Shown piece after piece: positions 8,331 to 25,751 of a DNA stretch of 25,751 nucleotides (its first letter is position 1; the number at the start of each line of letters is the position of its first letter). This DNA comes from a virus. The notes beneath the pieces were generated by a model. It was not told the origin of the DNA. It did no database searches and saw only the letters and a list, made by a program, of their open reading frames with translations. The translations under genes were made by a program, and so were the position numbers. Location of the stretch: positions 1-25,751 of the IMG/VR virus record IMGVR_UViG_3300042863_000301, one strand, 5' to 3'.

Positions 8331-8923
8331 GTCTTCCTAAATGCTGTTTGACCCATATCAGGTATTCTAATAATTTGTAACTTATGCCAATTACAAGCAA
8401 TAAATGTTTCTACTGCTAGCCTAGGACTCATTTGTGCTGATGTTGTGCCATTCTTGTCTATATATTTCCAATCAGTAGCATCATCACATAATATGATGCC
8501 ACCAGTAACTAACATTTTAAAACATAATGTCAAATCTGTCAATACTGTACTTGCATGATGATCTCCATCAATATAAATGAATTCAGGTTTTACCCCTTGA
8601 TTAATTAAATCTAATAATCCATCTTCACTATGTTTTCTAATGAACTCTATATTTTTGTGCTTACACGCATTAATGTTGTACATAAAATTATTATGTATAG
8701 CTACCGGATCTTCTTCAATGTCTACACTTCCAATGTGAGGATCTATTCCGTAAATTTTTAAATTAGGATTATACGGAGTATAAGAATCACTCATAGTACA
8801 AGTAGTATGTCCTTCATATACACCTACTTCTACAATAGTATTAGGGACTCCGTTGTTACGTATAATATGGTCAATATTTTGCATAGCATTGGGAGTCATG
8901 TCCCAAGTTACTTTATACGTCAT
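8324..8923 (-). CDS. Class I SAM-dependent methyltransferase (Methyltransf_24 type)
   Basis: This 199-aa protein has the layout of a Methyltransf_24-like Rossmann methyltransferase. Motif I VEVGVYEG is at residues 31-38, the ribose-binding acid at Asp61 in YGIDPH, the IDGDH motif at 118-122, and the GGIILCDDA strand-loop at 141-149. IDGDH with a following helix is typical of members encoded beside sugar-modifying genes, where they methylate saccharides or similar acceptors. The specific substrate here cannot be told. The length is normal for a stand-alone domain. Its ATG lies inside the last codons of the upstream fusion gene (11-nt overlap), and its own end overlaps the GT25 gene, so the three are tightly coupled. 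This supports one pathway that builds and caps a glycan. Confidence 0.82.
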   Translation of the reverse strand: MTYKVTWDMTPNAMQNIDHIIRNNGVPNTIVEVGVYEGHTTCTMSDSYTPYNPNLKIYGIDPHIGSVDIEEDPVAIHNNFMYNINACKHKNIEFIRKHSEDGLLDLINQGVKPEFIYIDGDHHASTVLTDLTLCFKMLVTGGIILCDDATDWKYIDKNGTTSAQMSPRLAVETFIACNWHKLQIIRIPDMGQTAFRKTC

Positions 8924-10664
8924 TACTTGTTAGTTTTAAAGGTTGCTTTAGTTTTTCTTCAATCAATTGTTCATATTCACTATAGTCGTTGCGACCTGGT
9001 TTGTGAACTTGAATCAAATATTTTGTACTCAATGCAACATTATTAAAATGATTCAATGCATAGTTAAGTTCTTCTTGTCCAATCTCACGCTTGCGTAATT
9101 TTTCTTCCCAAGGTGGAGTATATTCAAACTGCATATCAGCAATTTCAATATCAACATCGTGATCAAATGCTAATGCACTGTCACTTTGACCCTTTTGCAA
9201 CTTCTCTAACAACATGCGTTTATTAAACATATTGAACATACCCATAGTGATTAATCGCTTATGATCCGGATCATCTAGCGCAGTATCACAACGCCAGTGA
9301 GGACTTTGCACTTCCCAAATAGCACCATTATGACTAATACGATACATTTCTTTAATAACATTAATAAAATCACTACTTGTATCACCTAAGTGTTCTAAGA
9401 TATCTTTGGCAACAATGTGGTCAAATTCATTGTCAGCAAAGGGCCAAGGGAATTTATTGAAATCAACAACTTGATCTGGCTTAACGCTTGCACTAATATC
9501 AGCATTAACAAATCCCTCAATCTTCTTAAGACCACAACCCATATTCAATCGTTTAGGTACACGATCCTCATCAGGCATATCAACATGTTGCAGATTAAAT
9601 TTTTCTTCTAACTCTTTGTATAAAGATTGGAATGTATCATTCCATTTACTCTTAGATGTTTGTCTAAATAGTCTTACAGTTTCATAATAAGGTGATCTGC
9701 GATTCTCCGGACTACCGAATGTCCATGTATGATAAGGTAATACAGGTACTAGTACCCATGTTTCTTTACCCATGCCGGCAGCAATGTGTGCAATGCTTGT
9801 ACAACTAGTGATAATGATATCCATGTTACTGATAGCTGCCATTGTATCTTCCCAAGAGATTAAGAAGTGTTGCAAGTCAGTTACATTGGCAGGTAGTTGT
9901 ACTAAGTTATGATCTTTTTGTAAACTATAGATTTCTAGTTCAGAATACTTTGCTAGATTGGTAATGAAGTTCTCCGGGAAACGTCTAAACTGTTGATGTT
10001 CAAACTTGGGATTGCCTGCCCAACGAATACCAACTTTAATTTTATCACTGGTAATCATTGACTTCCAGATCTCAACACTATCAGCTAAAGGTGTTAGATA
10101 TGGTTGACCAGGGAAGTTCTCAAATGTATGTCCACTTACCCAACCTGCACTAAAACCGGGCACCCAGTAATCATGTCCCACAGTATTTGCTTGATTGCGT
10201 AGTATAACTTTATCTACACCTTCAATACGTTCAAATACACTTACTAATTCTGGAGCGGCTGCGATATAAACTTTATCTGCACCTAATTTCTTAAAGCTAG
10301 TCGCAAATCGTGCATGAATAATTTCATCACCATATCCACCCTCAAGCGATATGATAATTGACTTACCTTTAATATCATGTTGATCTGGATTAAAAATTGG
10401 TGCGTCTGTGCGTAATGGTGGACTACCGTATACACTTAAGAAACGACCGTTCTCTAAATATTGGCAACCCTTTTGATAATCACCATCTTGTATTAAGAAC
10501 CAGCCGCGATTGAAACAATGACGCATCCAAATATCTTGGGTGTTTTTACCATTTGGGTCAAGAATCTTTTCTGGACCAATTGCTTCTAGTTTATCACTTA
10601 ATACTCTTGCTTCTTTATGTTTGCCCTCAAGTTGGAGCTTCAACATTTCATCTATTTCATGCAT
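8913..10664 (-). CDS. TPR-GT9-like glycosyltransferase fused to a class I methyltransferase
   Basis: This 583-aa protein appears to have three parts. Residues 1-85 are helical and TPR-like, ending in DYQKGCQYLENGR. Residues about 100-345 resemble the GT-B enzymes of the heptosyltransferase-like GT9 / TPR-glycosyltransferase group: GGYGDEIIHARF (109-120), VGIRWAGNPKF (211-221) with RRFPEN after it, and ITSCTSIAHIAAGMGKETW (285-303) in the donor-binding half. Residues about 370-555 are a SAM methyltransferase, with LNMGCGLKK (373-381), acid Asp389 and the FADNEFDHIVAKDILEHL segment (409-426). A good AGAGGA site precedes the ATG. The union of sugar transfer and methyl capping in one chain suggests control of glycan chain ends. 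Donor, acceptor and target (host envelope or phage fibre) are not visible in the sequence. Confidence 0.78.
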   Translation of the reverse strand: MHEIDEMLKLQLEGKHKEARVLSDKLEAIGPEKILDPNGKNTQDIWMRHCFNRGWFLIQDGDYQKGCQYLENGRFLSVYGSPPLRTDAPIFNPDQHDIKGKSIIISLEGGYGDEIIHARFATSFKKLGADKVYIAAAPELVSVFERIEGVDKVILRNQANTVGHDYWVPGFSAGWVSGHTFENFPGQPYLTPLADSVEIWKSMITSDKIKVGIRWAGNPKFEHQQFRRFPENFITNLAKYSELEIYSLQKDHNLVQLPANVTDLQHFLISWEDTMAAISNMDIIITSCTSIAHIAAGMGKETWVLVPVLPYHTWTFGSPENRRSPYYETVRLFRQTSKSKWNDTFQSLYKELEEKFNLQHVDMPDEDRVPKRLNMGCGLKKIEGFVNADISASVKPDQVVDFNKFPWPFADNEFDHIVAKDILEHLGDTSSDFINVIKEMYRISHNGAIWEVQSPHWRCDTALDDPDHKRLITMGMFNMFNKRMLLEKLQKGQSDSALAFDHDVDIEIADMQFEYTPPWEEKLRKREIGQEELNYALNHFNNVALSTKYLIQVHKPGRNDYSEYEQLIEEKLKQPLKLTSNDV

Positions 10665-10711: not shown

Positions 10712-13700
10712 TTAAGGATTTTTTATATATCCACCTGTAGAACCGTCTTGTGATACAGAACTTATTCTAGTAGCTACCGCAGTAGGTGTTGACACTATGT
10801 ATGGTCCAGTACCTATCCCGACCTGATAACTAGTATTTAGACCCCAACCATACAATGTTTTAGAGGGGTCTACTGCAAAACTCACATCTTCACCAGCAGT
10901 TACAGTTATCCAGCTTTGGCTTGATATTAATGTAGGGGAATATGTTGAGTATATTCCCACTTGTATAGGGTTGCTACGCTGTATAGTAGTATTGTCACCT
11001 AATTGACCTAAATCACCTGCACCGACAGTATACAATTGACCACTAGTATCTATCATTGCAGCACAACTATTGCCACTTTGTGCAGGATTACCATAGTTAA
11101 AATTAGTACTTATTTGAGTTGGACTACTACGATTTATTAGATCATTTAATCCTAATTTACCATTAATATTATTTCCCCAAACCCATAATGTGCCATCTTC
11201 ACGTTTGGCTTGTATACTTATATTTGATGTATTTGGAGACCCTTCTATATCAGTCCATGCATATATACCACCTACTAAAACCGGCGACGTTTGATTTGTT
11301 GTAGCATTATTTCCTATATAAATACCTGTGCCCATCCCCCAAAGTGAACCATCTGCACGAATAATATGAGAGGTGGTATGTGATATGCTTACTTTTTTAT
11401 ACGTAGACGTACCTAATTGTGTTGGACTACTTCTAGCTATTGCATCATTTAATCCAAGTTGTCCGACATTATTGTATCCCCATATATATAAATAGCCATT
11501 ACTTGCAATTGCAGCACTAGTGAGTTGACCTGCTGATAGCGTAATATAACTCAATGATGTTACTATAGCCGGTGTTGATGTATTTGTTCTGTTATTTGAT
11601 CCTAATTGCCCATCACCATTTAATCCCCAGGTATGCAATTGCATATTACTATCAATAGCCATTGAATGACTTGATCCTGTTGTTATTTTTGTAAATATTG
11701 CCCCTGAAGAAATTTGCACCGGGCTACTTCTATCAATTGTATCACTTAAACCAAGTTGTCCGTATAAATTACTACCCCAACTAAAAATACTACCGTTAGC
11801 TTTTAACGCCATAGTGAAAGACGTACCGGCAGTTACATTTATATAAGTATTGTCAGAACCTATTTGAGATATAAGACTTCTATTTATTGTGTCATTTGTT
11901 CCTAATTGTCCGTATGTATTTTCTCCCCAAGACCATATTGTTCCGTCTGCTCGTAATCCTATAAAATAATTAAGGCCGGCAGCAATTTTTTGCCAACTAT
12001 ATCTTGCGTCAATTGGATTAGTAGCTGCATATCCTCCCCAACCATATAATTTATTATCATTTTTTAACGCTAATGCATGTCGATATCCTGCACTAATTTG
12101 AGTGTAGCTGGTAGAGCTATCAATTATTGTAGGGCTAAAATTATAAGGGTATGCATCTGGGCCGACAACCAACGGACTACTCGTATTAACTGTCCCGGTA
12201 CCTAACTTCCCGCCAGCATATGTTCCCCATACATATAATAGATTACTAGATGATAATGTAGTAATTACGCTTGCGCCAGCTTGTACTTGAGTGTAACTAT
12301 TTGTATTGACAGAAGTAAGTTCAATAGGTATAAATGCATATGCCATAGTTGCAGTATTAATTTGCACTGGACTAGACAGTAGGTTTGATCCTGCATTCCC
12401 GTTATTCAAACCCCATGACCATATATTTGCTATTATGGGTTTGACTGCTAAACTGTTAATTTCTCCAGAACTTATCAACGTCCAACTTGAACTTCCTATT
12501 TGCACTGGGCTTGATCTACTTATTGTAGTACCATCCCCTACTTGCCCTCGAGTATTAATTCCCCATGACCATAATTTATTGGTTGAAGTTGTTGCAGAAT
12601 TAAGATTAGTACCAGCGGCTATTTTACTCCAAACATTTGATGAACCAATTTGTATTGGACTTGATTCTAAAATATTATTACTATACCATATTGATCTAAT
12701 AAACAGTGGGCTAGATTTATTTGTAGCAGTTCCATCACCTAATTGACCTGAAGAATTTAATCCCCAAGTATATAATGCTGTACCTGATATCCCCAATGAA
12801 CTTGCAACGCCTGCCTGAAGAATATACCAGCTTGTTATAGAACCGGCAATTTGTACTGGACTTGACTTACTTATTAAAGTATTATCTCCTAGTTCACCTG
12901 AAGAATTTAATCCCCATCCGTATCCTGTACTATCTGTTAGTAACCCCAATGTATGACTTTGTCCTGCACTAACCTGAGACCAATCGCTAGTACCCATTTG
13001 TACAGGACTACTACGAGTCACTACATCACCTAATCCTAACTGGCCTGCACTATTTAGACCCCATATATACAATTTGTTAGAAGTGTCAATTGCTACACTA
13101 TGAGTAGCACCGGCAACTATTTCTGTTGCCAATAATGTACCAACTTGTACTGGGCTACTACGGCTAATTGTTGAATTATCTCCCAATTGTCCTACAGAGT
13201 TTGTTCCCCATGCCCATACTGTTGAATTTGTTCTAATGCCAATACTGAATCCGTTACCTGCTGTAATTTTAGTCCAAGATTCAGATCCTATTTGTATAGG
13301 GCTGCTTCTATTAATTTTGTATAATAATGAAGATCCTGTTTGTACCGGACTGCTTCTATTTAATGTATTATTTTGCCCCAATTGTCCAGCTGCATTTAAA
13401 CCCCAAACATATAAATCATATGCAATTGCCAAGCTATGACTGCCATTGGCCGAAATCTGAGAGTATGAACTTGTACCTATTTGAGTTGGGCTTGATCTAT
13501 TGATTGTTATTCCTACATTTAATCCTGTTTGCCCAGATGCATTACTTCCCCATGCGTATAAATTCCCAGTACTAGTAATAGCCATTGAATGGCTTGCGCC
13601 TGCGCTAACTATTATCCAAGAACCAGATTCTATTCCTGAACCTATCTGAATTGGACTTGACTTATTAATAACAGTATCATCCCCTAACTGACCAGTTGCA

Positions 13701-16700
13701 TTGGTACCCCATGCATATAATTTTTTATCAGATGTAATTGCCAAACTATGACTATTCCCTGCAGCAACTTGTGACCAACTACTTGACCCTATTTGTACTG
13801 GGCTTGATCTGTTTACTGTAGTTCCATCTCCTAACTGACCAGTTGCATTAGTACCCCATGTATATAGACTATTGGTAAGAGTAATAGCCATTGAATGGCT
13901 TATTCCAGCATTTACTGAGTTCCAAGAACCAGAGCCAATTTGTATCGGGCTTGATCTACTTATAACGGTTCCATTTCCCAATTGACCTGCAGCATTTAAT
14001 CCCCAAGCCCATAGTGTTCCGTTATATGCTACAGCTAATACATGTTGAGTTATTGATACGTCATTCCATCCCCCAACACCTAGTTGAATAGGACTACTTC
14101 TATTGATTGTGGATGCCTGTCCAAATCCTAATACGCCATTGGTATTAGTTCCCCAGCACCAAAGACTATCATCAGTACGAATACCAAAACTTGCATTATT
14201 CCCTGCAGATATTTTTTTCCACATCATTGCACCGATCTGCACCGGGGAACTACGAGATATTGCAGTAGAATCACCTACTTGCCCTGAAGTATTAAATCCC
14301 CAACCAAATAATATATTGTCACTTCGTATAGCTAATGTATGACTAGTACCGGCACTTATAGATTTCCAGCTTAAATTAGCTAATTCACCTGCACTATTTA
14401 AGCCCCAACCCCAAAGTGTATTATCCGATCTTATTGCTAAACTATGACTTATACCAGCCGCAATCTGAATCCAACTATAATCACTACTGATTAAAACAGG
14501 GGTAGATTTATTTACTGTAGTACCATCACCTAAAATTCCTTGAGAATTGTATCCCCAGCCCCAAAGAGAATTGTCAGTTTCTATTGCCAATGTGTGACCA
14601 AGTGTAGAAGTTTTAGCTCTAGCTACCAATGTATATAAACCTGGTATTTGCACTGGATTTGATCTACCTAGTATAGTACCATCCCCTACTTGCCCAACAT
14701 CATTGTTGCCCCATGTAAATAAGGAGTTATCCCCTGATCTAAGATAGGCTTGGCTATCAATTTGTGGAGTTACTGATCCGGTTGTCAATGTTGTTATTCC
14801 AAGTTGTCTTAAACTATTATCTCCCCAAGCATACATATTTCCAGTAGTAGTTATTCCCAATGTATGACTAGTGCCGGCGCTGACCGCAGACCAACTACTG
14901 CTACCTATTTGAACAGGACTACTTCTGTACTGAATCAATGTTGCAGAATTAATTTGTACTGGACTACTACGTATGACTGAAGTTCCGTTACTTATACTAC
15001 TACCCCATCCATATAAATTAGTAAGAGTTCCAGTAGTGCCAGGCACTCCACCTGCAGTAATACCTAATGTTGTGCTAAGAGCAATTACTACCATACTCCA
15101 AGATAGTGTTCCGACCTGAGTTGGGGAACTTCTAGCAATAGTTGTACTTAACCCTAAAACTCCGCGTCCATTGTCTGGGCCCCAGCCTAATATAGTGCCG
15201 TCGAGTCTAGTTGCTAATGTACCAAAATTTCCTGTTGTAACCCCACTAAAAAAGTTGTTAGGAGCCACTTGTACAGGTGAACTTCTATAAGTTGGTAAAA
15301 TAGCATTCTGGCCTAACTGGCCGCTTGCATTCGATCCCCAACCCCATAAGGTATTATCAGATTTTATAGCAAATCCATTAAGTACACCTGCATCAGCATA
15401 TCTCCATGTACCTAATAATTGGATTGGTGAAGTTATTGTTCCGATACTGTTATTACCTAAAGTTCCGTAAGCATTATCCCCCCACGACCATAAACTATTA
15501 TCTGACTTTATTCCAAAGGCAAAAGAGCCAAAACCTGACGTAGTAGTAGAATTAGAAATTAAAGTCCAGGATCCTGGTACTTGAACTGGACTACTTCTAG
15601 TTATTTGATCACCTATACCCAATTGACCATTGATATTATATCCCCATGTATATAGTTGCCCACTAGTATTGATCGCGGCTGCGTTTAATGTCCCTACTGA
15701 TAATTTACTCCAACTAGTTCCTACACCCATTTGTACTGGGCTAGACCTAGCAGTGTTTATAGTATATGCATCCCATAATACACCAGTTTGATTGTATCCC
15801 CATCCCCATAGTGTCCCGTCAGTCTTAATACCTATGGCATAACTTTGACCAACACCCACAGAAGACCAACTGCCGGGAACTTGCACAGGGCTACTTCTAG
15901 CAATAGTGGCTGCTTCTCCGGTACCAAATACGCCATTTCTATTAGTACCCCAAACCCACAATGTACTGTCGCTTCTTAATGCAAAGCTAGCATCTGCCCC
16001 AAATGAAGCATATCCCTTATCTTGGAAAACAGTAGACCATTGATAAGGGGCTACCGAAGTTCCCAGTTGACCCAGTGTATCATCCCCCCAACCAAATAAC
16101 TTACCAGCAGTATCAATCACAAAAGATTGTGATCCATTTGCACTAATTTGAGTGTAAGAGCCAGTACCCGATGTTATTAGTTGAGGTGTTGCATTTAATC
16201 TTCCCCAAGTATATACTAAATTGGTATTAGTCAATGCTAATGTGTCATCAATACCAGCACTAATTGCAGTATAACTCAACACTGGTGCCGCTGTAATTTG
16301 AATTGGACTACTTCGACTTACAGAATTACCGACAATACCTATATATCCATTATTCAATCCCCATGCCCATATAGTATAATCACTTCTAATTGCAACGGTT
16401 CTACTACCAACAGCACTTACCTTTAGCCAAAATCCACCTTCATCCCATGCATTTATTTGTACCGGGCTACTACGCAATATTGTAGTACCGTCACCTAACT
16501 GACCTGCACTATTTAGACCCCATAAAAATAATCTACCATCACTGCGAATTGCGGCTGAATGACTTTGGCCTGCACTAAGTTGTGTCCAACTATATGTAAG
16601 CGGTGTTGTATTAAAATCGCTGGTTAATAATAGTGTTTTACTACCCCACCCCCACAAAGTATAATCATCTTGTATCCCAAAAGAATTTACAGCACTTGCA

Positions 16701-18142
16701 ATACTATAACCAGCTAATGTTCCTACACTAGTTCTCCAATTAGCACTATGTATTTGTACGGGACTACTGCGATATATTTGATCATTGGTGCCCAATATTG
16801 AATTATCGTTGCGACCCCAAGCATATAGTTTATTATTTAATTTAACAGCAAATACACTGACTGTTGTAGCTTGTACTATAGACCATGAACTAACTCCTAC
16901 TTGTATAGGACTACTTCTATTAAGTGTTGAAGTATTACCAAGCTGTCCTGAAGAATTAAGGCCCCATGCCCACAATGTGTTATTCGTTTGAATACCATAA
17001 CTTGATACATCACCTATTGATACCGATGTCCAACTGCCGACGCCAGTAATTTGCACTGGGCTTGATCTGCTGATTGTGGTATTATTTCCTAGTTGACCGG
17101 AAGTCCCTAATCCCCATAAATACATGGTGCTATCAGATTTAATCGCTGCTTTATGTGATTTTCCTGCAGACACAGTAATCCAAGATCCATTAACCTGTAC
17201 AGGACTACTACGAGTTATAGTAGTCCCGTTTCCAATTTGACCTACGTTATTATTACCCCAACACCATAATGTACCGTCGGTGCGTATAGCAGCTGGGGCC
17301 GCGCCTACCCCGCCCCCGTTAACTACAACCATAGACCAGGTATCAGTGCTAATTTGTGTAGGGCTACTGCGATTTATTACATCATTTAATCCTAACTGAC
17401 CAGTAGTGTTTATACCCCACCCAAACAGTATACCGTCTGTTCTAATGGCTAAAGTATATTCATCGTTTCCTGCAATTTGACTCCATGAGTTTGTTATTGC
17501 GGTTGAATATCCCAATTGCCCATATGTATTATCCCCAAAAGTTACTATTTTATAATCAGTTGTTAATCCTACAGTATAATTATTGCCAGCATCAACTTGT
17601 AGATAAGAACTTGTGCCAATTTGTAATGGACTACTTAAATTATAATATAGATATTGTCCAGTTTGACCTAAAGTGCCGGCTCCCCAAGCCCATAATGTAT
17701 TGTCACTTTTTAATGCAACAACGTGGCTTTGTCCAGCACCTATACTATTCCAACTAATTGTGTTTACTTGTACAGGACTACTACGATATGCATTTGACGG
17801 AATGTTGACTCCAAGTTCTCCATATTGGCTATATCCCCAACCAAATAATAAGTTGTCACTACTTAATGCTAATGAATAATTTAATCCAGTATAAACTCCT
17901 ATCCAAGTACTAGAGCCTATTTGAATTGGACTAGACGTATTTATTATATCATTATTACCTAGTTGTCCGTAGTTATTTGTCCCCCACGCATAAAGTTTTC
18001 CATCAACACCTATAGCAAGTGCATGGCTTATACCTATACTTACTTGTTTAAAATTACTAGCTAGTAAATATGGTGAGGGAATATAACTATTGCTAAATGC
18101 AGAAAGTTGTGTTGGATTTGATCGATTAGTAGTTATACTCAT
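10712..18142 (-). CDS. Giant RCC1-repeat beta-propeller protein, second of a pair, 2476 aa
   Basis: The protein consists almost wholly of RCC1-type units of about 48-52 residues, with the consensus SW-x-x-ISAG-x-x-HSLAI-x-x-D-x-x-LY-x-WG-x-N-x-x-GQLGD-x-T-x-x-x-RSSPVQIG. I count about 48 units by hand. RCC1 units form the blades of beta-propellers, usually seven per ring in RCC1 and BLIP-II, so this chain could hold six or seven propellers. Irregular units without the RSSPVQ strand, or with it doubled, break the array at intervals. The N-terminus (MSITTNRSNPTQL) is only the last strand of a unit; the C-terminus ends in a non-repeat Gly/Ser tail (GSTGGYIKNP). No signal peptide or membrane segment is seen. 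Its ATG overlaps the first giant gene's stop, with GGAG 7 nt upstream. It is probably a tail-fibre or adhesin component; RCC1 recognition is firm, the role inferred. Confidence 0.85.
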   Translation of the reverse strand: MSITTNRSNPTQLSAFSNSYIPSPYLLASNFKQVSIGISHALAIGVDGKLYAWGTNNYGQLGNNDIINTSSPIQIGSSTWIGVYTGLNYSLALSSDNLLFGWGYSQYGELGVNIPSNAYRSSPVQVNTISWNSIGAGQSHVVALKSDNTLWAWGAGTLGQTGQYLYYNLSSPLQIGTSSYLQVDAGNNYTVGLTTDYKIVTFGDNTYGQLGYSTAITNSWSQIAGNDEYTLAIRTDGILFGWGINTTGQLGLNDVINRSSPTQISTDTWSMVVVNGGGVGAAPAAIRTDGTLWCWGNNNVGQIGNGTTITRSSPVQVNGSWITVSAGKSHKAAIKSDSTMYLWGLGTSGQLGNNTTISRSSPVQITGVGSWTSVSIGDVSSYGIQTNNTLWAWGLNSSGQLGNTSTLNRSSPIQVGVSSWSIVQATTVSVFAVKLNNKLYAWGRNDNSILGTNDQIYRSSPVQIHSANWRTSVGTLAGYSIASAVNSFGIQDDYTLWGWGSKTLLLTSDFNTTPLTYSWTQLSAGQSHSAAIRSDGRLFLWGLNSAGQLGDGTTILRSSPVQINAWDEGGFWLKVSAVGSRTVAIRSDYTIWAWGLNNGYIGIVGNSVSRSSPIQITAAPVLSYTAISAGIDDTLALTNTNLVYTWGRLNATPQLITSGTGSYTQISANGSQSFVIDTAGKLFGWGDDTLGQLGTSVAPYQWSTVFQDKGYASFGADASFALRSDSTLWVWGTNRNGVFGTGEAATIARSSPVQVPGSWSSVGVGQSYAIGIKTDGTLWGWGYNQTGVLWDAYTINTARSSPVQMGVGTSWSKLSVGTLNAAAINTSGQLYTWGYNINGQLGIGDQITRSSPVQVPGSWTLISNSTTTSGFGSFAFGIKSDNSLWSWGDNAYGTLGNNSIGTITSPIQLLGTWRYADAGVLNGFAIKSDNTLWGWGSNASGQLGQNAILPTYRSSPVQVAPNNFFSGVTTGNFGTLATRLDGTILGWGPDNGRGVLGLSTTIARSSPTQVGTLSWSMVVIALSTTLGITAGGVPGTTGTLTNLYGWGSSISNGTSVIRSSPVQINSATLIQYRSSPVQIGSSSWSAVSAGTSHTLGITTTGNMYAWGDNSLRQLGITTLTTGSVTPQIDSQAYLRSGDNSLFTWGNNDVGQVGDGTILGRSNPVQIPGLYTLVARAKTSTLGHTLAIETDNSLWGWGYNSQGILGDGTTVNKSTPVLISSDYSWIQIAAGISHSLAIRSDNTLWGWGLNSAGELANLSWKSISAGTSHTLAIRSDNILFGWGFNTSGQVGDSTAISRSSPVQIGAMMWKKISAGNNASFGIRTDDSLWCWGTNTNGVLGFGQASTINRSSPIQLGVGGWNDVSITQHVLAVAYNGTLWAWGLNAAGQLGNGTVISRSSPIQIGSGSWNSVNAGISHSMAITLTNSLYTWGTNATGQLGDGTTVNRSSPVQIGSSSWSQVAAGNSHSLAITSDKKLYAWGTNATGQLGDDTVINKSSPIQIGSGIESGSWIIVSAGASHSMAITSTGNLYAWGSNASGQTGLNVGITINRSSPTQIGTSSYSQISANGSHSLAIAYDLYVWGLNAAGQLGQNNTLNRSSPVQTGSSLLYKINRSSPIQIGSESWTKITAGNGFSIGIRTNSTVWAWGTNSVGQLGDNSTISRSSPVQVGTLLATEIVAGATHSVAIDTSNKLYIWGLNSAGQLGLGDVVTRSSPVQMGTSDWSQVSAGQSHTLGLLTDSTGYGWGLNSSGELGDNTLISKSSPVQIAGSITSWYILQAGVASSLGISGTALYTWGLNSSGQLGDGTATNKSSPLFIRSIWYSNNILESSPIQIGSSNVWSKIAAGTNLNSATTSTNKLWSWGINTRGQVGDGTTISRSSPVQIGSSSWTLISSGEINSLAVKPIIANIWSWGLNNGNAGSNLLSSPVQINTATMAYAFIPIELTSVNTNSYTQVQAGASVITTLSSSNLLYVWGTYAGGKLGTGTVNTSSPLVVGPDAYPYNFSPTIIDSSTSYTQISAGYRHALALKNDNKLYGWGGYAATNPIDARYSWQKIAAGLNYFIGLRADGTIWSWGENTYGQLGTNDTINRSLISQIGSDNTYINVTAGTSFTMALKANGSIFSWGSNLYGQLGLSDTIDRSSPVQISSGAIFTKITTGSSHSMAIDSNMQLHTWGLNGDGQLGSNNRTNTSTPAIVTSLSYITLSAGQLTSAAIASNGYLYIWGYNNVGQLGLNDAIARSSPTQLGTSTYKKVSISHTTSHIIRADGSLWGMGTGIYIGNNATTNQTSPVLVGGIYAWTDIEGSPNTSNISIQAKREDGTLWVWGNNINGKLGLNDLINRSSPTQISTNFNYGNPAQSGNSCAAMIDTSGQLYTVGAGDLGQLGDNTTIQRSNPIQVGIYSTYSPTLISSQSWITVTAGEDVSFAVDPSKTLYGWGLNTSYQVGIGTGPYIVSTPTAVATRISSVSQDGSTGGYIKNP
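11122..11158. repeat. 37-nt exact repeat shared by both giant genes (copy 1)
   Basis: These 37 bases recur without a mismatch at 19304-19340, about 8.2 kb away in the other giant gene. Both copies encode the LGLNDLINRSSP part of an RCC1 unit. Because most units differ widely in synonymous positions, exact identity points to recent exchange between the two genes. Confidence 0.8.
13684..13860. repeat. Tandem near-identical RCC1 unit segments, 147-nt period
   Basis: Bases 13684-13713 and 13831-13860 match at 29 of 30 positions and are 147 nt (49 codons) apart, exactly one RCC1 unit. The encoded units share TNATGQLGD with near-identical flanks (SW..V.AG.SHS.AIT). This looks like a recent local unit duplication or conversion. 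Confidence 0.7.
13921..13951. repeat. 31-nt near-identical segment shared with 22161-22191
   Basis: 30 of 31 bases match between the second giant gene (here) and the first (22161-22191). The segment encodes the SSPIQIG-S-x-SWN end of a unit and the start of the next. It is a second sign of sequence exchange between the two giant genes. Confidence 0.65.
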
Positions 18143-18153
18143 GTCAGATCTCC
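18139..18153 (-). promoter_or_regulatory. ATGA stop/start junction with GGAG site inside an RCC1 unit
   Basis: On the minus strand GGAG (18153-18150) lies 7 nt before ATG (18142-18140), and the ATG overlaps the TGA (18141-18139) of the first giant gene. This fits termination-reinitiation or independent initiation. No slippery heptamer is evident, so programmed frameshifting is less likely, though a -1 shift here would join the two repeat arrays into one open frame. Confidence 0.75.
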
Positions 18154-21100
18154 GATCTGTCCAAAATTATTTTGTCCGAATAGATACGCTTGATTATTTT
18201 CATTAATTATTGAACTAAAACTATATCCTGAACTTATATTACTAATACGAGAATTAATTTGTACAGGACTACTTCTATTTAGTATATCGTTATTTCCAAG
18301 TTGACCATAATTATTTTGTCCCCATGCGAATAATAAATTATTATAATTTGTCCCTAAACTGTGTGTGCTTCCAGCACTAATTTTAGCCCAATCATTAGTT
18401 CCTATTTGTACTGGGCTACTTTCATATGGATATATAGATGATAACAATACTATAGGGCTACTAGTAGAAACTGTTACTGCTACGGAGACCTGTACAGGTT
18501 GGCTTCTATTAAGGACTGCGCCGATACCAAATTGACCAGTTGCACCATAACCAGACCCCAGCACACCAAAATCGGATATTGCTCTAACATTTAAACTATG
18601 GCTAAAGCCTGAAGTAACTATAGAAAAACTTGAACCACTTGAGGTAATTACCGGACTGCTACGGTTTACCGTATTATTTTGTCCTAATTGACCAAAATTA
18701 TTTTGGCCCCAGGCAAATCCAGCATAGTCTGTCGTTATACCTGAAGTAAAATCATCCCCGGAAGAAATAAACATCCAACTGCTTGACCCTACTTGAAAAG
18801 GGCTACTACGAGATATGAGAGTACCGTCTCCTAACTGTCCTAGTGTATTTAATCCCCAAGTAAATAGTAATCCAGAAGAGTTAATAGCTGCACTATGAGT
18901 TTGACCTGCTGAAATTTGTGACCAACTATCTGTACCTATTTGAGTTGGACTGTAGATCAAGGTATCATTAAATGAATTGCCGATTTGGGTTGGACTACTT
19001 CTAGCTATTGCATCATTTAGTCCAAGAAATCCTCCAGCGCCGCCCCAAGACCATAAAATATTAGTTGTTGAAATTGCTAGAGTAGCTCTACCTACTCCTA
19101 GTGGATCTCCGAGTGTAGCAACCATTATATATGAATTAGTTCCTACTTGGGTAGGACTGCTGCGACTTATCAAGTCATTTTGTCCTAACTGGCCATTATT
19201 ATTTTCTCCCCATACCCATAATGTATTATCAGATTTTATAGCTGCTATATGTCCAGTGCCTTTTGCTATTTGTATAAAACTACTACCTACGTCTACCTGT
19301 ACAGGACTACTACGATTTATTAGATCATTTAATCCTAATTGACCAGCAGTATTTAATCCCCATCCATATAATGCACCGTTAGTTTTTATTGCAAAAGTAA
19401 AATTACTACCGCCAGAATCTGAAACACCATCCCAATCAGATTCAGTTCCTATTTGTACAGGACTACTACGAGTTATTAGATCATTTAATCCAAGTTGTCC
19501 ATTAGAGTTATCTCCCCAACTCCAAAGCGTATTATCATTCCGAATAGCTATAGTTGATGTACCATTAACAGATACAGTGTTCCAAGATCCGAGTATCTGT
19601 GTTGGGCTAGTTCTAGCAGTTCTATCATTCAATCCTAAATACCCTTGCCCATTCGCTCCCCATACCCATAAAGTACCATCAGTTGCAATAATAGCGGCTG
19701 AACTCTCATGGACCGCTGCCATAGACCAACTACGTGAACTTGTTGTAGGCACTAAAGCTGGCGCAGTAACGTTAGGAGAGTTACTAAAACCTATAAAAAT
19801 ACTATTTCCAGCAGAGGCGCCGTAGCCCCATGCCCACAGACTACCATCACTTTTAATGGCTAATGTTGCTCGGTAAGCAGAACTAACATAAACCCAAGGA
19901 TTTACTGGATCAGGAGTTCCAATTTGTGCTGGGCTGGACCTAGCTCCGGTAGCAGTCGAACTTAGTCCTAAAGAAGCATTCGTATTATGCCCCCAACCAT
20001 ATAATTCTCCTGAGGATCTTAACGCAAAAAAGTTAGTACCGCCCCCGGATGCTACTTGAGTCCAACTGTTTCTTGTTACATCTCCAACTTGTCCGGAAGT
20101 ATTAGCACCCCAGCCGTACAATTTATTATTACTAGTTAATGCTATTGCATGTGAACCGCCGGCATTTATCGCTGACCAACTACTAGAACTTATTTGTACT
20201 GGACTTGATTTATTAAAAGTTGTACCATCTCCTAATTGATTTAAAAAATTTAAGCCCCATGACCATAATGTATAGTCTGACTTGATTGCTAATGTAAAAC
20301 TAAGGCCTGCACTTACTGATATCCAGCTACCTGAAATTTGTACTGGACTTGATTTATTAATAGTTGTATTGTCTCCTAATTGTCCAGCTGCATTCGTCCC
20401 CCATATCCATAAAGAATTATCTATAGCCTTAATTGCTGCCGTATATGAAGATCCTGAACTTATTACTATCCAACTTTCTGCATTTATAAATGTTGGCCAT
20501 GATCTGTTAACGGTGGTCCCTATCCCAAGCTGACCTACATTGTTGAGGCCCCATCCAATTAATTGACCATCATTTCTTATACCTATATTATGAAAATCTC
20601 CTGCACTTAAGGAAGTCCAACTATAATATTGTGGGGAATTATATAATGTGCCATAAATTCCATAACCCCAAGTATCTATCGTACCCTGTGGGTCAATAGA
20701 TAATGCTTGCTGGTTAAACATTGATAACTGATATATATGACCTTTGTTTTTTAATGAAGGTATTTGAATAGGGCTACTACGTTGCACAGTGTCTCCTATG
20801 CCTAATTCAGAATTTTTATTAAATCCCCATCCCCATAAATCATTATTCTCTCTGACAGCTAATATATTGCCATCACCAACAACAACGTTGTTGTATGTTC
20901 CATCAACTGCTGCTGGGCTAGATCGTGTAGTAGTAGCATTATTACCTAATAATCCTGTACCCCACGTCCAAAGCGTATTATCTACTTTTATTGCAGCGGC
21001 TTGCGAAATGCCAGCTGTAACCATAACCCAAGAACTAGTACCTAATTGCACTGGACTTGATCTTCCGATAGTTGTTCCGCTATTGCCTAAATTACCATAA

Positions 21101-24100
21101 GAGTTATTTCCCCACGCAAATAATCCCCCGTCAGACCGTATAGCTGCACTAAAACTTTGTCCAGCTGATACAAAAGTCCAACTACTTATTCCTAATCTAG
21201 CCGGATATGAATAAAAAGATGAGTTAGTAGTATTATATACTTGTACAGGATTTGATCTAGCTAACGATGTTCCGGCTCCCGGTAATTGCCAGTAAAGACT
21301 ATTCTGACCAACAAATACTGTATGCCCATATTTATCAATTGCTTGCAATTGTAAATTTCTATTTGCATATCCTAATTTTAAACTTCCAGTTTGTACTTGC
21401 ACTGGACTTGATCTACTAATAGTAGTTCCATCTCCAAAATTACCAAAAGAATTATTCCCCCAACTATATATTACATTATCTGATGTTTGCGCCATTACAT
21501 ATTGAGAGCCTGCATTTACTACTGTGTAAATATTAGTACCTATTTGTATTGGGCTCGATCTATCTATTGTAGTGTTATCACCTAATCGGCCTGAAAGATT
21601 ACTTCCCCAACCATACAAATAAGTATCACTACTTATTGCATAAGTTGTACTGGTACTGGCTTCAACCGTATTCCAACTACCAGAAACTTGGACTGGACTA
21701 CTTCTTTTAATAGTAGTATTATCACCTAATTGCCCAGCATTATTTTCTCCCCATACGTATAATGTTGAACCAGTAATTGCAGCAGTATAATTACGTCCTG
21801 TTCTAATAGAAGTCCATGATAAATTTCCTATCTGAGTGGGACTCGACTTGTTAGTTGTAGTCCCATCACCTAATTGTCCATTTGAATTATTACCCCAAGT
21901 GTATAATTGATTATCAGTTTTTATTCCTACAGAGTGGCTATCACCTGCACTCACATATTTCCATATATCTGTACCGATTTGAACTGGGCTTGACCTAGAT
22001 AGTAGCACGGCCGTTAAAGAGAATCCAACTTGAGTTGGTGCTGATCTATATACTAAACTAAAATCTCCTATGCTACCGTATTGATTAGTACCCCATGATT
22101 GTAATAAATTATTGGAATCGGTAAGTATTCCTAAAGAATTGACTCCTGCTGAAATAGCATTCCAAGAACTAGAGCCAATTTGTATCGGGCTGCTACGGGA
22201 TATAATAGTTGCATCTCCTAATTGACCTTGGGCATTGGTACCCCATGCCCATAATAAGTAATTTGTATCAATTGCTAAAGTTTGACCAAATCCTGCTTTA
22301 ACTGATATCCAACTGCCAGGTACCTGTACAGGTTGACTTCTATTAATAGTATCATCTAGTCCCAATTGGCCTGATGTATTTGTCCCCCATACATACAGAG
22401 TTCCATTATTTTTTAAAGCAATTGTATGCCCTGTTCCTGAGCAACTATTTACATAAGACCAATCGGTATCACTACCTATCTGAACCGGACTACTTCTATT
22501 TATGGTATCATTTAATCCTAATTGACCCGTATTATTAATACCCCAAGACCAAAGTTTTCCGTCAGTTGTTATGGCTGTAACACCATTAGCAGAGGCAGTT
22601 GCAGATGCGTATGAGGTAGGTACTGAAGTAGATCCAAAACTTGATGGATAAAATTCATTAGTCATTTGCATAAGGAACGAAGATGGGTCACCATTGACTG
22701 TAAATGTTACTGCATTTGAACTATAATCAGTTGTCAGTGAACTAGATTGAAATGCAAGTATTACTGTATTTGAAATATTTGTCAGTGGTGATGTAGGTAC
22801 TGTGAAGCTAGACCCACTATAAACTATAGCTTTTGTAAATCTCAAATTACTTATATATGCATTACAGCTTTCCATTAGCGTTATGTTAGTTAACGTAGAT
22901 ATTATTGGTGCAGCTCCTGCATATGGCGTTGTAGCTGTTAAAACTCCATCTAGATAAACATAATAAGTATTCAAAGCACTATTTCTTACAAATGCAATAT
23001 GATGCCAAGTATCTGATGGAGCAGCTACACCAGTAGTATTACCATATGCATTTATGTTACCATCATTCTGGGCAGAACAACTAAATGCCCAGCCGGATGT
23101 ATAACCACTATTACCTAGCGTTACCCACCAATCTGCATTTCCAATAACTTTATGTTTGAGTCCGACCGATCCACCGGAAGGTATATTAAATGCCCAAAAT
23201 TCAATAGTAAAATTGTCAGATGCTCCTATACTATAATTAGCATCGGTAGCAGAAAGGGTAACCCCGTTACTATAACCTTGATATACTGACCAATAGGTGC
23301 TTACTCCTGAAATTTCTGATGTAGGTATTCTAACGCTAGTAACAGTTTCATAACCTGTTATCCCGGACAGACCCAATGCAGCTTGTCCAGTGCCCCATCT
23401 ATATAAATTAAAATCAGAACTAACTGCTATACCAAAACTATCACCTGAACTCACTGAAACAAAACTTTTAGGCCATATAATCATCATAGGGGAGAGTTGG
23501 TCTGAAAGGTTTCCTGTACCATTTGCATAACTAACTCCTCTTCCCCACACATATAATTTATTACTGTTTGTAATACCACCTGTGCGTAAACTTCCAGTAT
23601 TTATAAATACCCAAGACAATGATCCTATTTGTGTTGGACTACTTCGAAGGGTGGTAGTGTTATCTCCTAGATTACCAAAAAAATTATATCCCCATGCATA
23701 TAATCTGCCATCCTGTCGTATTGCTGCACTATAATTATTCCCAGTACTAACTGTAATCCAAGAAAAAGGTGTATCAGGTCTAATTTGTCCTGAAGAATTT
23801 AATCCCCAGCCCCACAAATATCCATCACTATCAATGGCTAAAACATGGGCCCCGCCCGCACTAACCTGTAACCAGCTGCTATTACCAATCTTTGCCGGAG
23901 GATTTGACCCGGAACCTGTAGAATTATTTCCTAGTACTCCGTTACTATTCAATCCCCATGTGAACAATAAATTGTCTGGACTTATGGCTGCTACGTAGCC
24001 GCCATCACCTATACTCATTGACTTCCAAGATAGGGCTATAGTAGAGGTTTGACCTCCTACTTGACCATAAGTATTTGTTCCCCACCCATATAAACCATAA

Positions 24101-25272
24101 TCATACGATGAAATAGCTAGATTATGTGTTCCAGAAGAGACTGCAATCCAACTGCCACCTCCAGTGATCTGTACAGGGCTACTATAACTAATCAAATTTA
24201 GAGTTCCTAATTCACTATTAGAATTATTACCCCATACATATAACAATCCATCTACTGTTATTCCTGTACTATGAATATTACCTGCTGATATTGAACTCCA
24301 AAAACTATTTCCTATCTGCACCGGACTTGATCTATTGATAGTTGTATTATCTCCTAATTGACCAGAACTGTTTAGTCCTAATGCAAATAACTTACCATCA
24401 TATCTTACAGCTAAAATATGATCATCTCCGGTTACTACCTGTGACCAATACAAACTTGAATAGGTTGAATATTTACCTAATTGACCATATTGGTTATCAC
24501 CCCAAGTAAATAATTTATTAGATGTATTAATAGCTAAACTATGGGACCCGCCGGCTGAAATAATACTCCAAGAATTTGTACCTATTTGTACTGGGCTTGA
24601 TCTACTTATTGTAGTGCTATCTCCTAATTGACTAATATCATTTCTACCCCAAGTATATAATTTACTAGTCGAGTCGAGTGCCATTGAATGAAACTCTCCA
24701 GCACTTATTGAAATAAAACTTCCTGAAATTTGAACCGGGCTACTTCTGAGAATAGTATCAAACAATCCTAATTGGCCATCATAATTAGAACCCCATGCAT
24801 ATAGTCTGTAAGAAGAATCAATAGCAAGACTATAATTTTCACCAGCACTTATTTGTATAAAACTAGTAGTTTGCGAAATTAAAGTAGGTAAACTTCTATC
24901 TACTACCCCAATATCACCGAGTTGTCCATAGTAATTACTACCCCAAGCATATAAAGAATAATTTTTATCTATTCCTAAAGTATGTGTTTTTCCTGCAAAT
25001 ACAGCTGTCCAACTACTAGAACTTATTTGCACTGGGCTAGATTTACTTACTGTAGTGCCATCTCCTAATTGTCCTTGATAATTGTTGCCCCATGCCCACA
25101 GAGTAGAATCACTTCTTATAGCTACTGAGTGGCCATCACCGCTGGTAATAGAAACCCAACTGTAATAGTAGGCCGCTTTGCTATTTCCAACCAAACCAAA
25201 ACTGTTATCGCCCCATGTATATAAAGAGGGCACATGACTATATAAACCTAGTAATAATGTATTGATATCCAC
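18139..25272 (-). CDS. Giant RCC1-repeat protein with LamG insert, first of a pair, 2377 aa
   Basis: Like its downstream neighbour, this chain is a tandem array of RCC1 units, about 42 by hand count: roughly 14 before and 28 after a LamG/concanavalin-like domain at about residues 657-860. The start is GTG (25272), 3 nt past the stop of the tail-chaperone-domain gene and in the same frame. A weak GGAA lies 8 nt upstream, and no ATG/GTG/TTG alternative lies close by. The first unit is only a half (LYTWGDNSFGLVG), and the last ends GQIGDLT, just before the expected RSSPVQ strand. That strand appears at the start of the next protein. No signal peptide is seen. Family knowledge: RCC1 propellers bind proteins (Ran/chromatin, beta-lactamase for BLIP-II). 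In a phage tail region a long receptor-binding fibre is the most plausible role, but it is not proven. Confidence 0.83.
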   Translation of the reverse strand: MDINTLLLGLYSHVPSLYTWGDNSFGLVGNSKAAYYYSWVSITSGDGHSVAIRSDSTLWAWGNNYQGQLGDGTTVSKSSPVQISSSSWTAVFAGKTHTLGIDKNYSLYAWGSNYYGQLGDIGVVDRSLPTLISQTTSFIQISAGENYSLAIDSSYRLYAWGSNYDGQLGLFDTILRSSPVQISGSFISISAGEFHSMALDSTSKLYTWGRNDISQLGDSTTISRSSPVQIGTNSWSIISAGGSHSLAINTSNKLFTWGDNQYGQLGKYSTYSSLYWSQVVTGDDHILAVRYDGKLFALGLNSSGQLGDNTTINRSSPVQIGNSFWSSISAGNIHSTGITVDGLLYVWGNNSNSELGTLNLISYSSPVQITGGGSWIAVSSGTHNLAISSYDYGLYGWGTNTYGQVGGQTSTIALSWKSMSIGDGGYVAAISPDNLLFTWGLNSNGVLGNNSTGSGSNPPAKIGNSSWLQVSAGGAHVLAIDSDGYLWGWGLNSSGQIRPDTPFSWITVSTGNNYSAAIRQDGRLYAWGYNFFGNLGDNTTTLRSSPTQIGSLSWVFINTGSLRTGGITNSNKLYVWGRGVSYANGTGNLSDQLSPMMIIWPKSFVSVSSGDSFGIAVSSDFNLYRWGTGQAALGLSGITGYETVTSVRIPTSEISGVSTYWSVYQGYSNGVTLSATDANYSIGASDNFTIEFWAFNIPSGGSVGLKHKVIGNADWWVTLGNSGYTSGWAFSCSAQNDGNINAYGNTTGVAAPSDTWHHIAFVRNSALNTYYVYLDGVLTATTPYAGAAPIISTLTNITLMESCNAYISNLRFTKAIVYSGSSFTVPTSPLTNISNTVILAFQSSSLTTDYSSNAVTFTVNGDPSSFLMQMTNEFYPSSFGSTSVPTSYASATASANGVTAITTDGKLWSWGINNTGQLGLNDTINRSSPVQIGSDTDWSYVNSCSGTGHTIALKNNGTLYVWGTNTSGQLGLDDTINRSQPVQVPGSWISVKAGFGQTLAIDTNYLLWAWGTNAQGQLGDATIISRSSPIQIGSSSWNAISAGVNSLGILTDSNNLLQSWGTNQYGSIGDFSLVYRSAPTQVGFSLTAVLLSRSSPVQIGTDIWKYVSAGDSHSVGIKTDNQLYTWGNNSNGQLGDGTTTNKSSPTQIGNLSWTSIRTGRNYTAAITGSTLYVWGENNAGQLGDNTTIKRSSPVQVSGSWNTVEASTSTTYAISSDTYLYGWGSNLSGRLGDNTTIDRSSPIQIGTNIYTVVNAGSQYVMAQTSDNVIYSWGNNSFGNFGDGTTISRSSPVQVQTGSLKLGYANRNLQLQAIDKYGHTVFVGQNSLYWQLPGAGTSLARSNPVQVYNTTNSSFYSYPARLGISSWTFVSAGQSFSAAIRSDGGLFAWGNNSYGNLGNSGTTIGRSSPVQLGTSSWVMVTAGISQAAAIKVDNTLWTWGTGLLGNNATTTRSSPAAVDGTYNNVVVGDGNILAVRENNDLWGWGFNKNSELGIGDTVQRSSPIQIPSLKNKGHIYQLSMFNQQALSIDPQGTIDTWGYGIYGTLYNSPQYYSWTSLSAGDFHNIGIRNDGQLIGWGLNNVGQLGIGTTVNRSWPTFINAESWIVISSGSSYTAAIKAIDNSLWIWGTNAAGQLGDNTTINKSSPVQISGSWISVSAGLSFTLAIKSDYTLWSWGLNFLNQLGDGTTFNKSSPVQISSSSWSAINAGGSHAIALTSNNKLYGWGANTSGQVGDVTRNSWTQVASGGGTNFFALRSSGELYGWGHNTNASLGLSSTATGARSSPAQIGTPDPVNPWVYVSSAYRATLAIKSDGSLWAWGYGASAGNSIFIGFSNSPNVTAPALVPTTSSRSWSMAAVHESSAAIIATDGTLWVWGANGQGYLGLNDRTARTSPTQILGSWNTVSVNGTSTIAIRNDNTLWSWGDNSNGQLGLNDLITRSSPVQIGTESDWDGVSDSGGSNFTFAIKTNGALYGWGLNTAGQLGLNDLINRSSPVQVDVGSSFIQIAKGTGHIAAIKSDNTLWVWGENNNGQLGQNDLISRSSPTQVGTNSYIMVATLGDPLGVGRATLAISTTNILWSWGGAGGFLGLNDAIARSSPTQIGNSFNDTLIYSPTQIGTDSWSQISAGQTHSAAINSSGLLFTWGLNTLGQLGDGTLISRSSPFQVGSSSWMFISSGDDFTSGITTDYAGFAWGQNNFGQLGQNNTVNRSSPVITSSGSSFSIVTSGFSHSLNVRAISDFGVLGSGYGATGQFGIGAVLNRSQPVQVSVAVTVSTSSPIVLLSSIYPYESSPVQIGTNDWAKISAGSTHSLGTNYNNLLFAWGQNNYGQLGNNDILNRSSPVQINSRISNISSGYSFSSIINENNQAYLFGQNNFGQIGDLT
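19304..19340. repeat. 37-nt exact repeat shared by both giant genes (copy 2)
   Basis: This is the partner of 11122-11158, in the same phase of the RCC1 unit and the same orientation. Recombination between the direct copies would delete about 8.2 kb and fuse the two giant genes in frame with each unit. Confidence 0.8.
22690..23290 (-). other. LamG/concanavalin A-like domain inserted in the RCC1 array
   Basis: About 200 residues (roughly 657-860 of the giant protein) break the RCC1 pattern. They show the marks of a Laminin_G_3-type jelly roll: DNFTIEFWAF, then a WWVTLG strand, DTWHHIAFVRN, YYVYLDGVLTAT, the ISNLRFTKAIVY strand and a C-terminal ILAFQSSS. This fold often binds carbohydrates and is common in phage tail fibres and tape-end proteins. 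It is the only non-RCC1 domain I find in the two giants and so is a good candidate for direct glycan contact. Confidence 0.75.
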
Positions 25273-25275
25273 TTC

Positions 25276-25751
25276 TTAAATTCCGGAATCAGTAGAAGGT
25301 TCAGTTGAAGTTGTTGATGTTGGTAAGTTAGGCCATACTATCAAATTGAAGCTATTTATATCATAATCATCTTTGTAGATATTTGGTAAATCACGTAATT
25401 CTTGACGATATAATTTGTATAGAGTAGTTAATTCTGTACCATTTTTTTCTACTATATCATTCAATTGAGTGTAATCAGTGTCTTTGAGTAATTGATTACG
25501 ATATTCTCTAAGTTGCGACATTACTATATTATGTATATTAATTTTTTCTAAAAATTGTTGTTCTTCAGATGTTGTAGTTTCTGTAGTTTCAATTGAAGTA
25601 ATAGTTTCAACCGTCTTGGTCTCAATAATAATATTCCCTTCAATAGTGAAAATGCTATCAGATAATTTTTGACTAGTTGGATCATAGCTTGGTACAGGAG
25701 CCTGCTCTATGCATCTCCAGCCTAAAGATTCTATATATGTTTTATCTTCTG
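25276..25751 (-). CDS. Phage tail-assembly-chaperone-domain protein (partial, N-terminus outside window)
   Basis: The frame is open from the window edge to the TAA at 25278-25276, giving 157 visible residues. An internal ATG at 25521 would give 81 aa, but the open frame and fitting sequence upstream make a longer protein more likely. The last 80 residues fit the Phage_tail_APC pattern: LREYRNQLLKDTDYTQL, then LYKLYRQELRDLP and finally IVWPNLP. The part before it (ESLGWRCIEQAPVPSYDP, with an ETKTVE strand) also resembles fibre-assembly proteins, linked by a Thr/Glu-rich stretch. Such proteins assist assembly or attachment of the adjacent tail fibre, which suggests the giant RCC1 chain downstream is that fibre. 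After the TAA the reading frame continues, one codon later, into the GTG of the giant gene. The total length is unknown. Confidence 0.72.
   Translation of the reverse strand, partial: EDKTYIESLGWRCIEQAPVPSYDPTSQKLSDSIFTIEGNIIIETKTVETITSIETTETTTSEEQQFLEKINIHNIVMSQLREYRNQLLKDTDYTQLNDIVEKNGTELTTLYKLYRQELRDLPNIYKDDYDINSFNLIVWPNLPTSTTSTEPSTDSGI

Follow-up and report, generated by a model that had tools for sequence, protein, structure and literature searches.

What might a phage build from two adjacent genes whose products are made up almost entirely of RCC1 repeats? The question is raised by an entire virus contig of 25.75 kb, analysed over its whole length and referred to here as the window, in which two giant frames, both intact, follow one another on the minus strand:

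18139..25272, minus strand: P0002, the first giant RCC1 protein; GTG start at 25272, 2377 aa, first in gene order
10712..18142, minus strand: P0001, the second giant RCC1 protein; ATG start at 18142, 2476 aa
22903..23271, minus strand: Laminin_G_3 / concanavalin-A-like lectin domain in the RCC1 chain of P0002, about residues 668-790; PF13385 E=1.1e-9
24157..25176, minus strand: first seven-bladed propeller, P0002 residues 33-372; AlphaFold2 model, mostly pLDDT 75-96

Two giant RCC1 proteins and their relatives

The two proteins total 4853 residues, encoded by 57% of the window, in agreement with a sequence-only reading of this DNA which had assigned more than half of it to the pair. The same reading had given them about 42 and 48 units, enough for 12-13 propellers. 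When units of about 50 residues are counted by their conserved core (W..V.AG..H..AI), an automated count finds 41 in P0002 and 48 in P0001. A hand count, made from the list of cores together with the gaps read in both protein sequences, arrives at 42 and 49, the extras being degenerate units such as the last one of P0001. On these two counts the earlier unit and propeller numbers hold. A search with RCC1 profiles, which had been proposed as a check, returned 72 matches to PF00415 in the window at E<=0.001, of which 68 exceed the curated cut-off alone or with their neighbours. The repeat families PF00415/PF13540 score 876 and 838 bits per giant protein, WD40_RLD (RCC1-like domain) scores 1365 and 1225 bits, and a purpose-built unit profile divides the proteins into 47 and 55 pieces, some of which are half units. 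Both match phrog_4219 (E=5e-207 and 5e-189), the best PHROG of P0001. Having about 42 and 49 units, not 7, they are not RCC1 in the sense of the Ran exchange factor and chromatin protein.

The description of the chain as almost pure RCC1 stands for nearly all of its length but not for the lectin-like domain of P0002, which is absent from the Pfam list of the whole protein at E<=0.001 and appeared when the excised piece was searched alone. P0002 has a W-G strand at its N-terminus and an extra W-G strand at its C-terminus; P0001 begins at the SSP/NPTQ strand, without the first W-G strand. Many RCC1 strings open with a short hydrophobic stretch (MLLxxxLL-like), as at 25243-25272 of the window, while a DLDxLFxPIG domain or a W-L-rich segment stands at the start of others; these varied N-termini are possibly interchangeable anchors. 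A helix is predicted with low confidence for residues 2-10 of P0002.

An AlphaFold2 model of P0002 residues 1-930 has a mean pLDDT of 63.9 and a pTM of 0.45. Within it, residues 33-372 superimpose on UVR8 (4dnv_A) with Z 54.5 and an rmsd of 1.4 A over 339 residues, and it is to this predicted segment only that an RCC1-like seven-bladed propeller can be assigned. Its structural matches also include other RCC1 propellers, BLIP-II (3qhy, Z 27.2) and PhiKZ gp131C (Z 18.5, 5.1 A). The earlier proposal of seven-bladed propellers is thus well matched by the first ring, but the other propellers of the model are of lower confidence. The Laminin_G_3 region is poorly modelled (pLDDT <50).

The gene pair does not appear to be a fluke of assembly, since contig L013 (IMGVR_UViG_3300008448_007197), at 94-95% DNA identity, carries both giants intact with the same 4-base overlap, and contig L015, which ends inside the repeats, is 100% identical to the window over 3430 bases. 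A frameshift or sequencing error at the gene junction was rejected because L013 shares the overlap and junctions elsewhere break the protein alike. Between the window and L013, dN/dS is 0.29 and 0.32 over the two giants and 0.05-0.17 for three neighbour genes. The alignment of P0002 with its L013 counterpart contains one gap of 102 residues, or about two units, so repeat number shifts between near relatives. Positions 1-25000 of the window had no near DNA match in 50,697 phage records, a set that may omit its very closest records.

At the protein level, 38 of these 50,697 records contain stretches related to the giants; in some of them the match lies only around the LamG domain. A scan of uncultured viruses with a five-sequence alignment returned at least 600 stretches, from which 74 loci were kept. 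With named phages and earlier loci, there are at least 81 loci in at least 59 clusters, and at least 107 RCC1 frames when the window is included and redundant copies are counted. The window pair is neither the largest nor the sole giant RCC1 set. In contig G010 (IMGVR_UViG_3300042691_016421; L185-L186) three giants of 3286, 3105 and 5159 aa stand side by side, amounting to 11,550 aa and about 34.6 kb of coding sequence with two split-unit junctions. In G013 (L189-L190) an RCC1 frame of at least 8573 aa is open at its 5' end; only 72 cores were found in it, so other domains must be inserted. The second gene of G005 (L177-L178) has, by eye, about five LamG-like domains in its RCC1 chain, as P0002 has one. 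The same query retrieved 80 bacterial RCC1 loci with 95 complete frames, smaller than the phage giants, most often of 7 or 14 units, also of 8 and 13, the largest having 38.

The sequence-only reading had suggested a new kind of fibre or adhesin. Of this, 'new' is half right: RCC1 proteins had already been recorded in phages, and the giants are members of a large group in uncultured phages. In the literature searched, which covers one library, no description was found of giant multi-propeller RCC1 phage proteins; most of the 'RCC1' matches examined there with cyanophage or virus terms were strain numbers of the Roscoff Culture Collection. More widely, the analysis points to phage proteins that are quantised in sevens, in many cases divided within a blade and linked to a glycosyltransferase, a group for which the papers searched yielded no description.

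Seven-fold totals and a gene break inside a blade

Of 34 complete proteins in a first, clean set, 32 had 7, 14, 21, 28, 35 or 49 units. The question was then put to a wider set by a stricter automated count, restricted to regular arrays and clustered at 85% identity. A permissive automated count errs by one at the ends, returning 8 for proteins that have 7 in the clean set, and the seven-fold statistic is therefore taken from the stricter one. Multiples of seven account for 45 of 61 regular arrays, which reach 63 units, and for 35 of the 46 that have more than 8 units, where chance would give 1/7 (binomial p 7e-21 if independent, an assumption weakened by shared descent). Thirty irregular arrays were excluded, the window's own among them. 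The 11 exceptions above 8 units comprise three single-gene proteins that stand (L036, L124 and L166, each with 20 units), the second genes of two split pairs (L139 with 52, L105 with 30), five that look like end artefacts and were retained as exceptions (L055, L067, L073, the second gene of L018, and L078) and G014, a likely frameshift. Gene 1 of L056 was scored as a multiple (56) because the end rule added one unit; it has 55 by hand and 54 by the permissive count.

Duplication of whole propellers would be a simple source of sevens. It was rejected on the DNA of the units, whose identity showed no consistent peak at a lag of 7 or 14 in 8 proteins; at lag 14 it was 0.01-0.03 above the mean in some of these proteins and at or below the mean in others. 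Short units without the SSPVQ strand were considered as propeller boundaries and were not periodic by eye. With no consistent seven-unit memory in the DNA, it is the total rather than the history that is apparently constrained, and to judge from sequence the shuffling of units seems free, with totals kept at whole propellers. The model is in keeping with this, as residues 33-372 of P0002 make up one UVR8-like ring. The multiples of seven offer a natural experiment on the evolution of repeat proteins under a closure constraint.

Whether the rule extends across genes can be asked of split sets. By hand, the window pair sums to 42 + 49 = 91 = 13 x 7 and G007 to 55 + 29 = 84 = 12 x 7, where neither part is a multiple of 7; these hand counts were made with the seven-fold idea in mind. 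The hand sum of L013 is 40 + 49 = 89, which is not a multiple of 7, and G005, read as 39 + ~66, is uncertain from its LamG inserts and was left out. Automated totals of six complete split sets (window 89, L013 87, G005 104, G006 100, G007 82, G010 200) include no multiple of 7, the counter being often off by one per protein. Since the automated totals disagree and L013 sums to 89, a seven-fold sum for split sets is only a suggestion.

The position at which the giants are divided is more regular:

18142..18189, minus strand: last strand and loop of P0002, AYLFGQNNFGQIGDLT, the opening of a unit that is completed at the start of P0001
18139..18142, minus strand: ATGA stop-start overlap; GGAG (ribosome-site-like) lies inside the GQIGD codons just upstream

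Single-gene strings mostly start at an L-Y-x-W-G strand and end at the H..AI strand. In split pairs, gene 1 runs on through an extra W-G strand and a GQLGD-type loop before it stops, and the first strand of gene 2 is SSPVQ or W..V. Among distinct close gene pairs, 12 of 15 break inside one blade repeat; the other three (L058, L072 and L052, of smaller proteins) are complete at both ends. The 12 junctions, on 11 contigs, were obtained from 14 close pairs listed by dropping L013, a near copy of the window, and G014, whose overlap of -94 looks like a frameshift inside a unit. They are those of the window, G003, G004, G005, L128 (which resembles G005), G006, G007 (which breaks one strand later), G008, G010 (two), L105 and L139. 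As the junction spacings vary (-4, -1, 0, 15 and 28 bases), what is constant is the position of the break in the protein. A GGAG within the GQLGD codons was considered as the driver of the break; it is possible for overlapping junctions and fails for L105 and L139, whose second genes begin only after 15 and 28 bases.

A recurring split inside a blade predicts a joint between two proteins, and we infer that the two chains share one blade. The modelled first ring closes without the N-terminal W-G strand, so that blade sharing is a prediction of the break, not a demonstrated joint.

Tail genes upstream, a glycosyltransferase downstream

The sequence-only reading had placed the pair between a gene for a tail assembly chaperone and a glycan cassette. 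This is confirmed in the window, where the minus-strand order is chaperone, P0002, P0001, P0004, glycan cassette, then ribonucleotide reductase genes and a PAAR protein, and most relatives are arranged likewise. The flanking features are:

25276..25749, minus strand: P0003, phage tail assembly chaperone (Tfa/APC type); PF16778 E=5e-10; 5' part cut by the contig end
9585..10664, minus strand: N-terminal part of P0004, a helical N-terminus and a GT9-fold (GT-B) glycosyltransferase; conserved beside RCC1 strings
8913..9584, minus strand: C-terminal part of P0004, a methyltransferase-like domain; phrog_6636 E=3e-10, Methyltransf_11 E=7e-4, just below cut-off
8324..8923, minus strand: Methyltransf_24 family methyltransferase of the glycan cassette
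7623..8330, minus strand: glycosyltransferase family 25 of the glycan cassette; PF01755 E=4e-15

Of the more distant genes, NrdA (4158-6482) has Xanthomonas phage X1 as its nearest named phage (60% identity) and not cyanophages, and a 677-aa protein adjoining the PAAR protein (19-2052) has a weak match only, to PHROG 10975.

P0003 scores 39.5 bits against PF16778, for a cut-off of 26.6, and matches phrog_4912 (tail fiber assembly). The chaperone is complete in L015, with about 190 aa from its first ATG, and L015 with its contig extends the upstream order: a LamG-repeat protein, an S74-type fibre, a 130-aa tail fibre protein, the chaperone and then P0002. The LamG-repeat protein has seven LamG domains, the same kind of domain as in P0002. 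The S74-type tail fibre differs in length, at 1155 aa in L014 (733-4200) and 1460 aa in L015 (5100-9482).

The survey of uncultured viruses for RCC1 genes beside a chaperone, another check proposed earlier, gave a chaperone-like gene immediately upstream in 29 of the 45 testable clusters listed and none within four upstream genes in 16, with a neighbour profile that was trained on those same neighbours. By Pfam alone, PF16778 is found in 20 of 31 selected small neighbours, and a PF16778 gene is present in 7 of 12 contigs with giants. Among 27 selected larger upstream proteins (P0008 included), 14 match the top family, a tail fibre PHROG. The cultured phage BUCT-ZZ01 has fibre, chaperone and RCC1 genes in the same order. 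Judged by where they are encoded, in a fibre cluster with a chaperone, the giants are candidate tail fibres. The names of phage RCC1 genes commonly refer to DNA condensation; a large and diverse group of them is now placed in the tail fibre cluster.

On the other side of the pair, the modelled glycosyltransferase domain of P0004 (pLDDT 90.9, pTM 0.89) has a GT-B heptosyltransferase-type fold, matching 3tov_B with Z 17.9 and 2.8 A over 245 residues. Residues 83-358 give Z 17.9 and 17.6 to GT9 enzymes (3tov, heptosyltransferase II) and 16.4 to TibC; Foldseek TM-scores of the model are only about 0.5. At the sequence level, PF01075 is recognised in 2 of 42 members of the P0004 family (best E 0.003) and TIGR02193 in 10 of 36 homologues, P0004 itself having no match to the latter. 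TibC glycosylates a repetitive adhesin.

Directly after the RCC1 genes, 39 of the 50 clusters listed encode a homologue of P0004 residues 1-360; in 4 it lies at +2 or +3, and in 7 none was found. The reverse scan, with the enzyme alone, retrieved 80 loci in 53 clusters; in the 51 that have an upstream gene, RCC1 is at -1 in 44, at -2 to -4 in 4, elsewhere in 1 and absent in 2. In the loci examined, therefore, the glycosyltransferase that stands beside RCC1 strings is rarely found without them. The two clusters of 51 without RCC1 are L137 and L157, where it follows other adhesin-like proteins (one of 2575 aa, the other Gly-rich and of 680 aa); the enzyme may therefore act on tail adhesins more broadly. 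Among named phages, a strong match to the enzyme domain occurs only in BUCT-ZZ01, S-SRM01 and marine virus AG-345-E08, each of which also carries RCC1; the match of a fourth record, absent from the RCC1 list, is weak (22% identity), and three more match the methyltransferase part of P0004 only. One of the 80 bacterial RCC1 loci has an enzyme of this type (L193, a bacterial MAG contig of 5116 bases), which is possibly a misplaced phage fragment. The putative acceptor of the GT9-fold enzyme is most likely the RCC1 string; it could instead be a host glycan.

A proposed propeller fibre, its rivals and known systems

The reading favoured here, with moderate confidence, is that the products of both genes form a single long adhesive fibre associated with the tail, a chain of seven-bladed propellers that is probably glycosylated. 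It draws on the tail neighbourhood, the unit content, the predicted fold, the seven-fold totals, the relatives in virions, the dedicated enzyme and dN/dS; from these we infer that the giants are in the virion, that they bind, that they share a blade and that the glycosyltransferase acts on them. A blade would correspond to one unit of about 50 residues, and seven blades would close into a propeller of the RCC1/UVR8 type, making P0002 and P0001 a chain of about 6 + 7 propellers, or some 13 rings. With the break inside a blade repeat, each polypeptide would carry some strands of one blade, and the two would probably be joined end to end by sharing it. The strings would be assembled on the tail with the chaperone and glycosylated by the GT9-fold enzyme, with the methyltransferase and GT25. 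Loops on the propeller faces and the lectin-like insert could hold many weak, non-identical sites for glycans or surfaces, for example host surface sugars, and unit shuffling would change these sites. The sequence-only reading was right on the facts set out above and is plausibly right on the role.

Smaller relatives have been detected in particles. The report on coliphage W70 describes three phrog_4219 RCC1 proteins found in virions by mass spectrometry (PMC11370258), and a report on GAP32 records gp1 found by the same method (PMC5259590). In W70, the RCC1 genes (237-239) are far in gene order from the tail fibre genes (106-112) (PMC11370258), and this, with the 16 of 45 clusters that have no nearby chaperone, counts against the fibre. 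The W70 gene order suits instead a decoration or whisker, a covering of the head, collar or tail sheath whose strings would bind polysaccharide or particles and would not serve as receptor-binding fibres. Jumbo phages carry many RCC1 copies, and strings of propellers would suit generic sticking. Such a coat is nevertheless an unlikely explanation, given that the genes stand directly behind a chaperone-like gene in the window lineage and in 29 of 45 testable clusters listed, and that 14 of 27 selected larger upstream neighbours match the top tail fibre PHROG.

The structural match to BLIP-II (3qhy, Z 27.2) raises the prospect of secreted or intracellular host-interaction proteins, propeller inhibitors that are not part of the particle. 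This is improbable: no signal peptide is apparent by eye in the N-termini listed, the neighbourhood is of the fibre type and relatives are in virions.

Eukaryotic RCC1 binds nucleosomes, and the inherited name 'regulator of chromosome condensation' would make the giants internal DNA-organising proteins. The phAPEC6 paper suggests a DNA-ordering role for its RCC1 proteins (PMC7247149). The phrase 'chromosome condensation' is absent from the main text of the S-SRM01 paper. PHROGs 4219, 7220 and 16766 are filed under DNA, RNA and nucleotide metabolism, a label that may mislead annotation of phage RCC1 proteins, as members of phrog_4219 are virion proteins of W70. A role in DNA organisation is very improbable beside tail fibre and glycan enzyme genes, in proteins with a lectin-like insertion whose top fold match is UVR8, with BLIP-II also listed. 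Least probable of all is runaway repeat expansion without special function, or an assembly artefact, to which relatives differing by whole units, repeats prone to slippage and misassembly, and the end of L015 inside repeats would lend themselves, but against which stand long intact frames in many contigs, dN/dS of about 0.3, the multiples of 7 and the recurring split site.

If the giants are adhesive fibres, they would be unusually long ones. A broader claim is advanced only tentatively, namely that they represent a class of phage appendage of which the papers searched gave no description, with fibres of about 5,000 to more than 11,000 residues formed as strings of seven-bladed propellers, two or three polypeptides snapping together through a split blade, a dedicated GT9-fold enzyme, and multiples of seven kept despite unit shuffling. 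In a comparison of phage fEgEco12 with its sister phage, two of seven strongly differing proteins carry the annotation chromosome condensation regulator (PMC13070987); this is consistent with fast evolution and does not settle the role.

Several known systems share features with the giants. The phage RCC1 proteins of W70, GAP32, phAPEC6, S-SRM01 and BUCT-ZZ01 have the repeat and PHROG families (phrog_4219, phrog_7220, phrog_16766) in common with them, and in S-SRM01 and BUCT-ZZ01 the RCC1 genes adjoin tail fibre genes and the same glycosyltransferase family as in the window. The proteins of S-SRM01 and BUCT-ZZ01, however, have about 6-14 units and those of W70 are of 40-43 kDa, whereas the window spreads about 90 units across two proteins, with one unit split between them and a lectin-like domain inserted. 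UVR8 and RCC1 propellers have the fold predicted for the first propeller of P0002 (Z 54.5, 1.4 A), but the matched entries are single propeller domains and the giants a chain in a viral setting. TibC and the LPS heptosyltransferases (GT9) share a fold with the model of P0004 residues 83-358, at 10-14% identity, to which P0004 adds a helical N-terminus and a fused methyltransferase-like domain. Phage baseplates also have propellers with proposed host recognition, phi11 Gp45 and PhiKZ gp131C; the propeller is the proposed receptor-binding part of phi11 (Gp45) and perhaps of PhiKZ (PMC4901313). Unlike the giants, neither is built of RCC1 units, and phi11 Gp45 has one propeller per chain.
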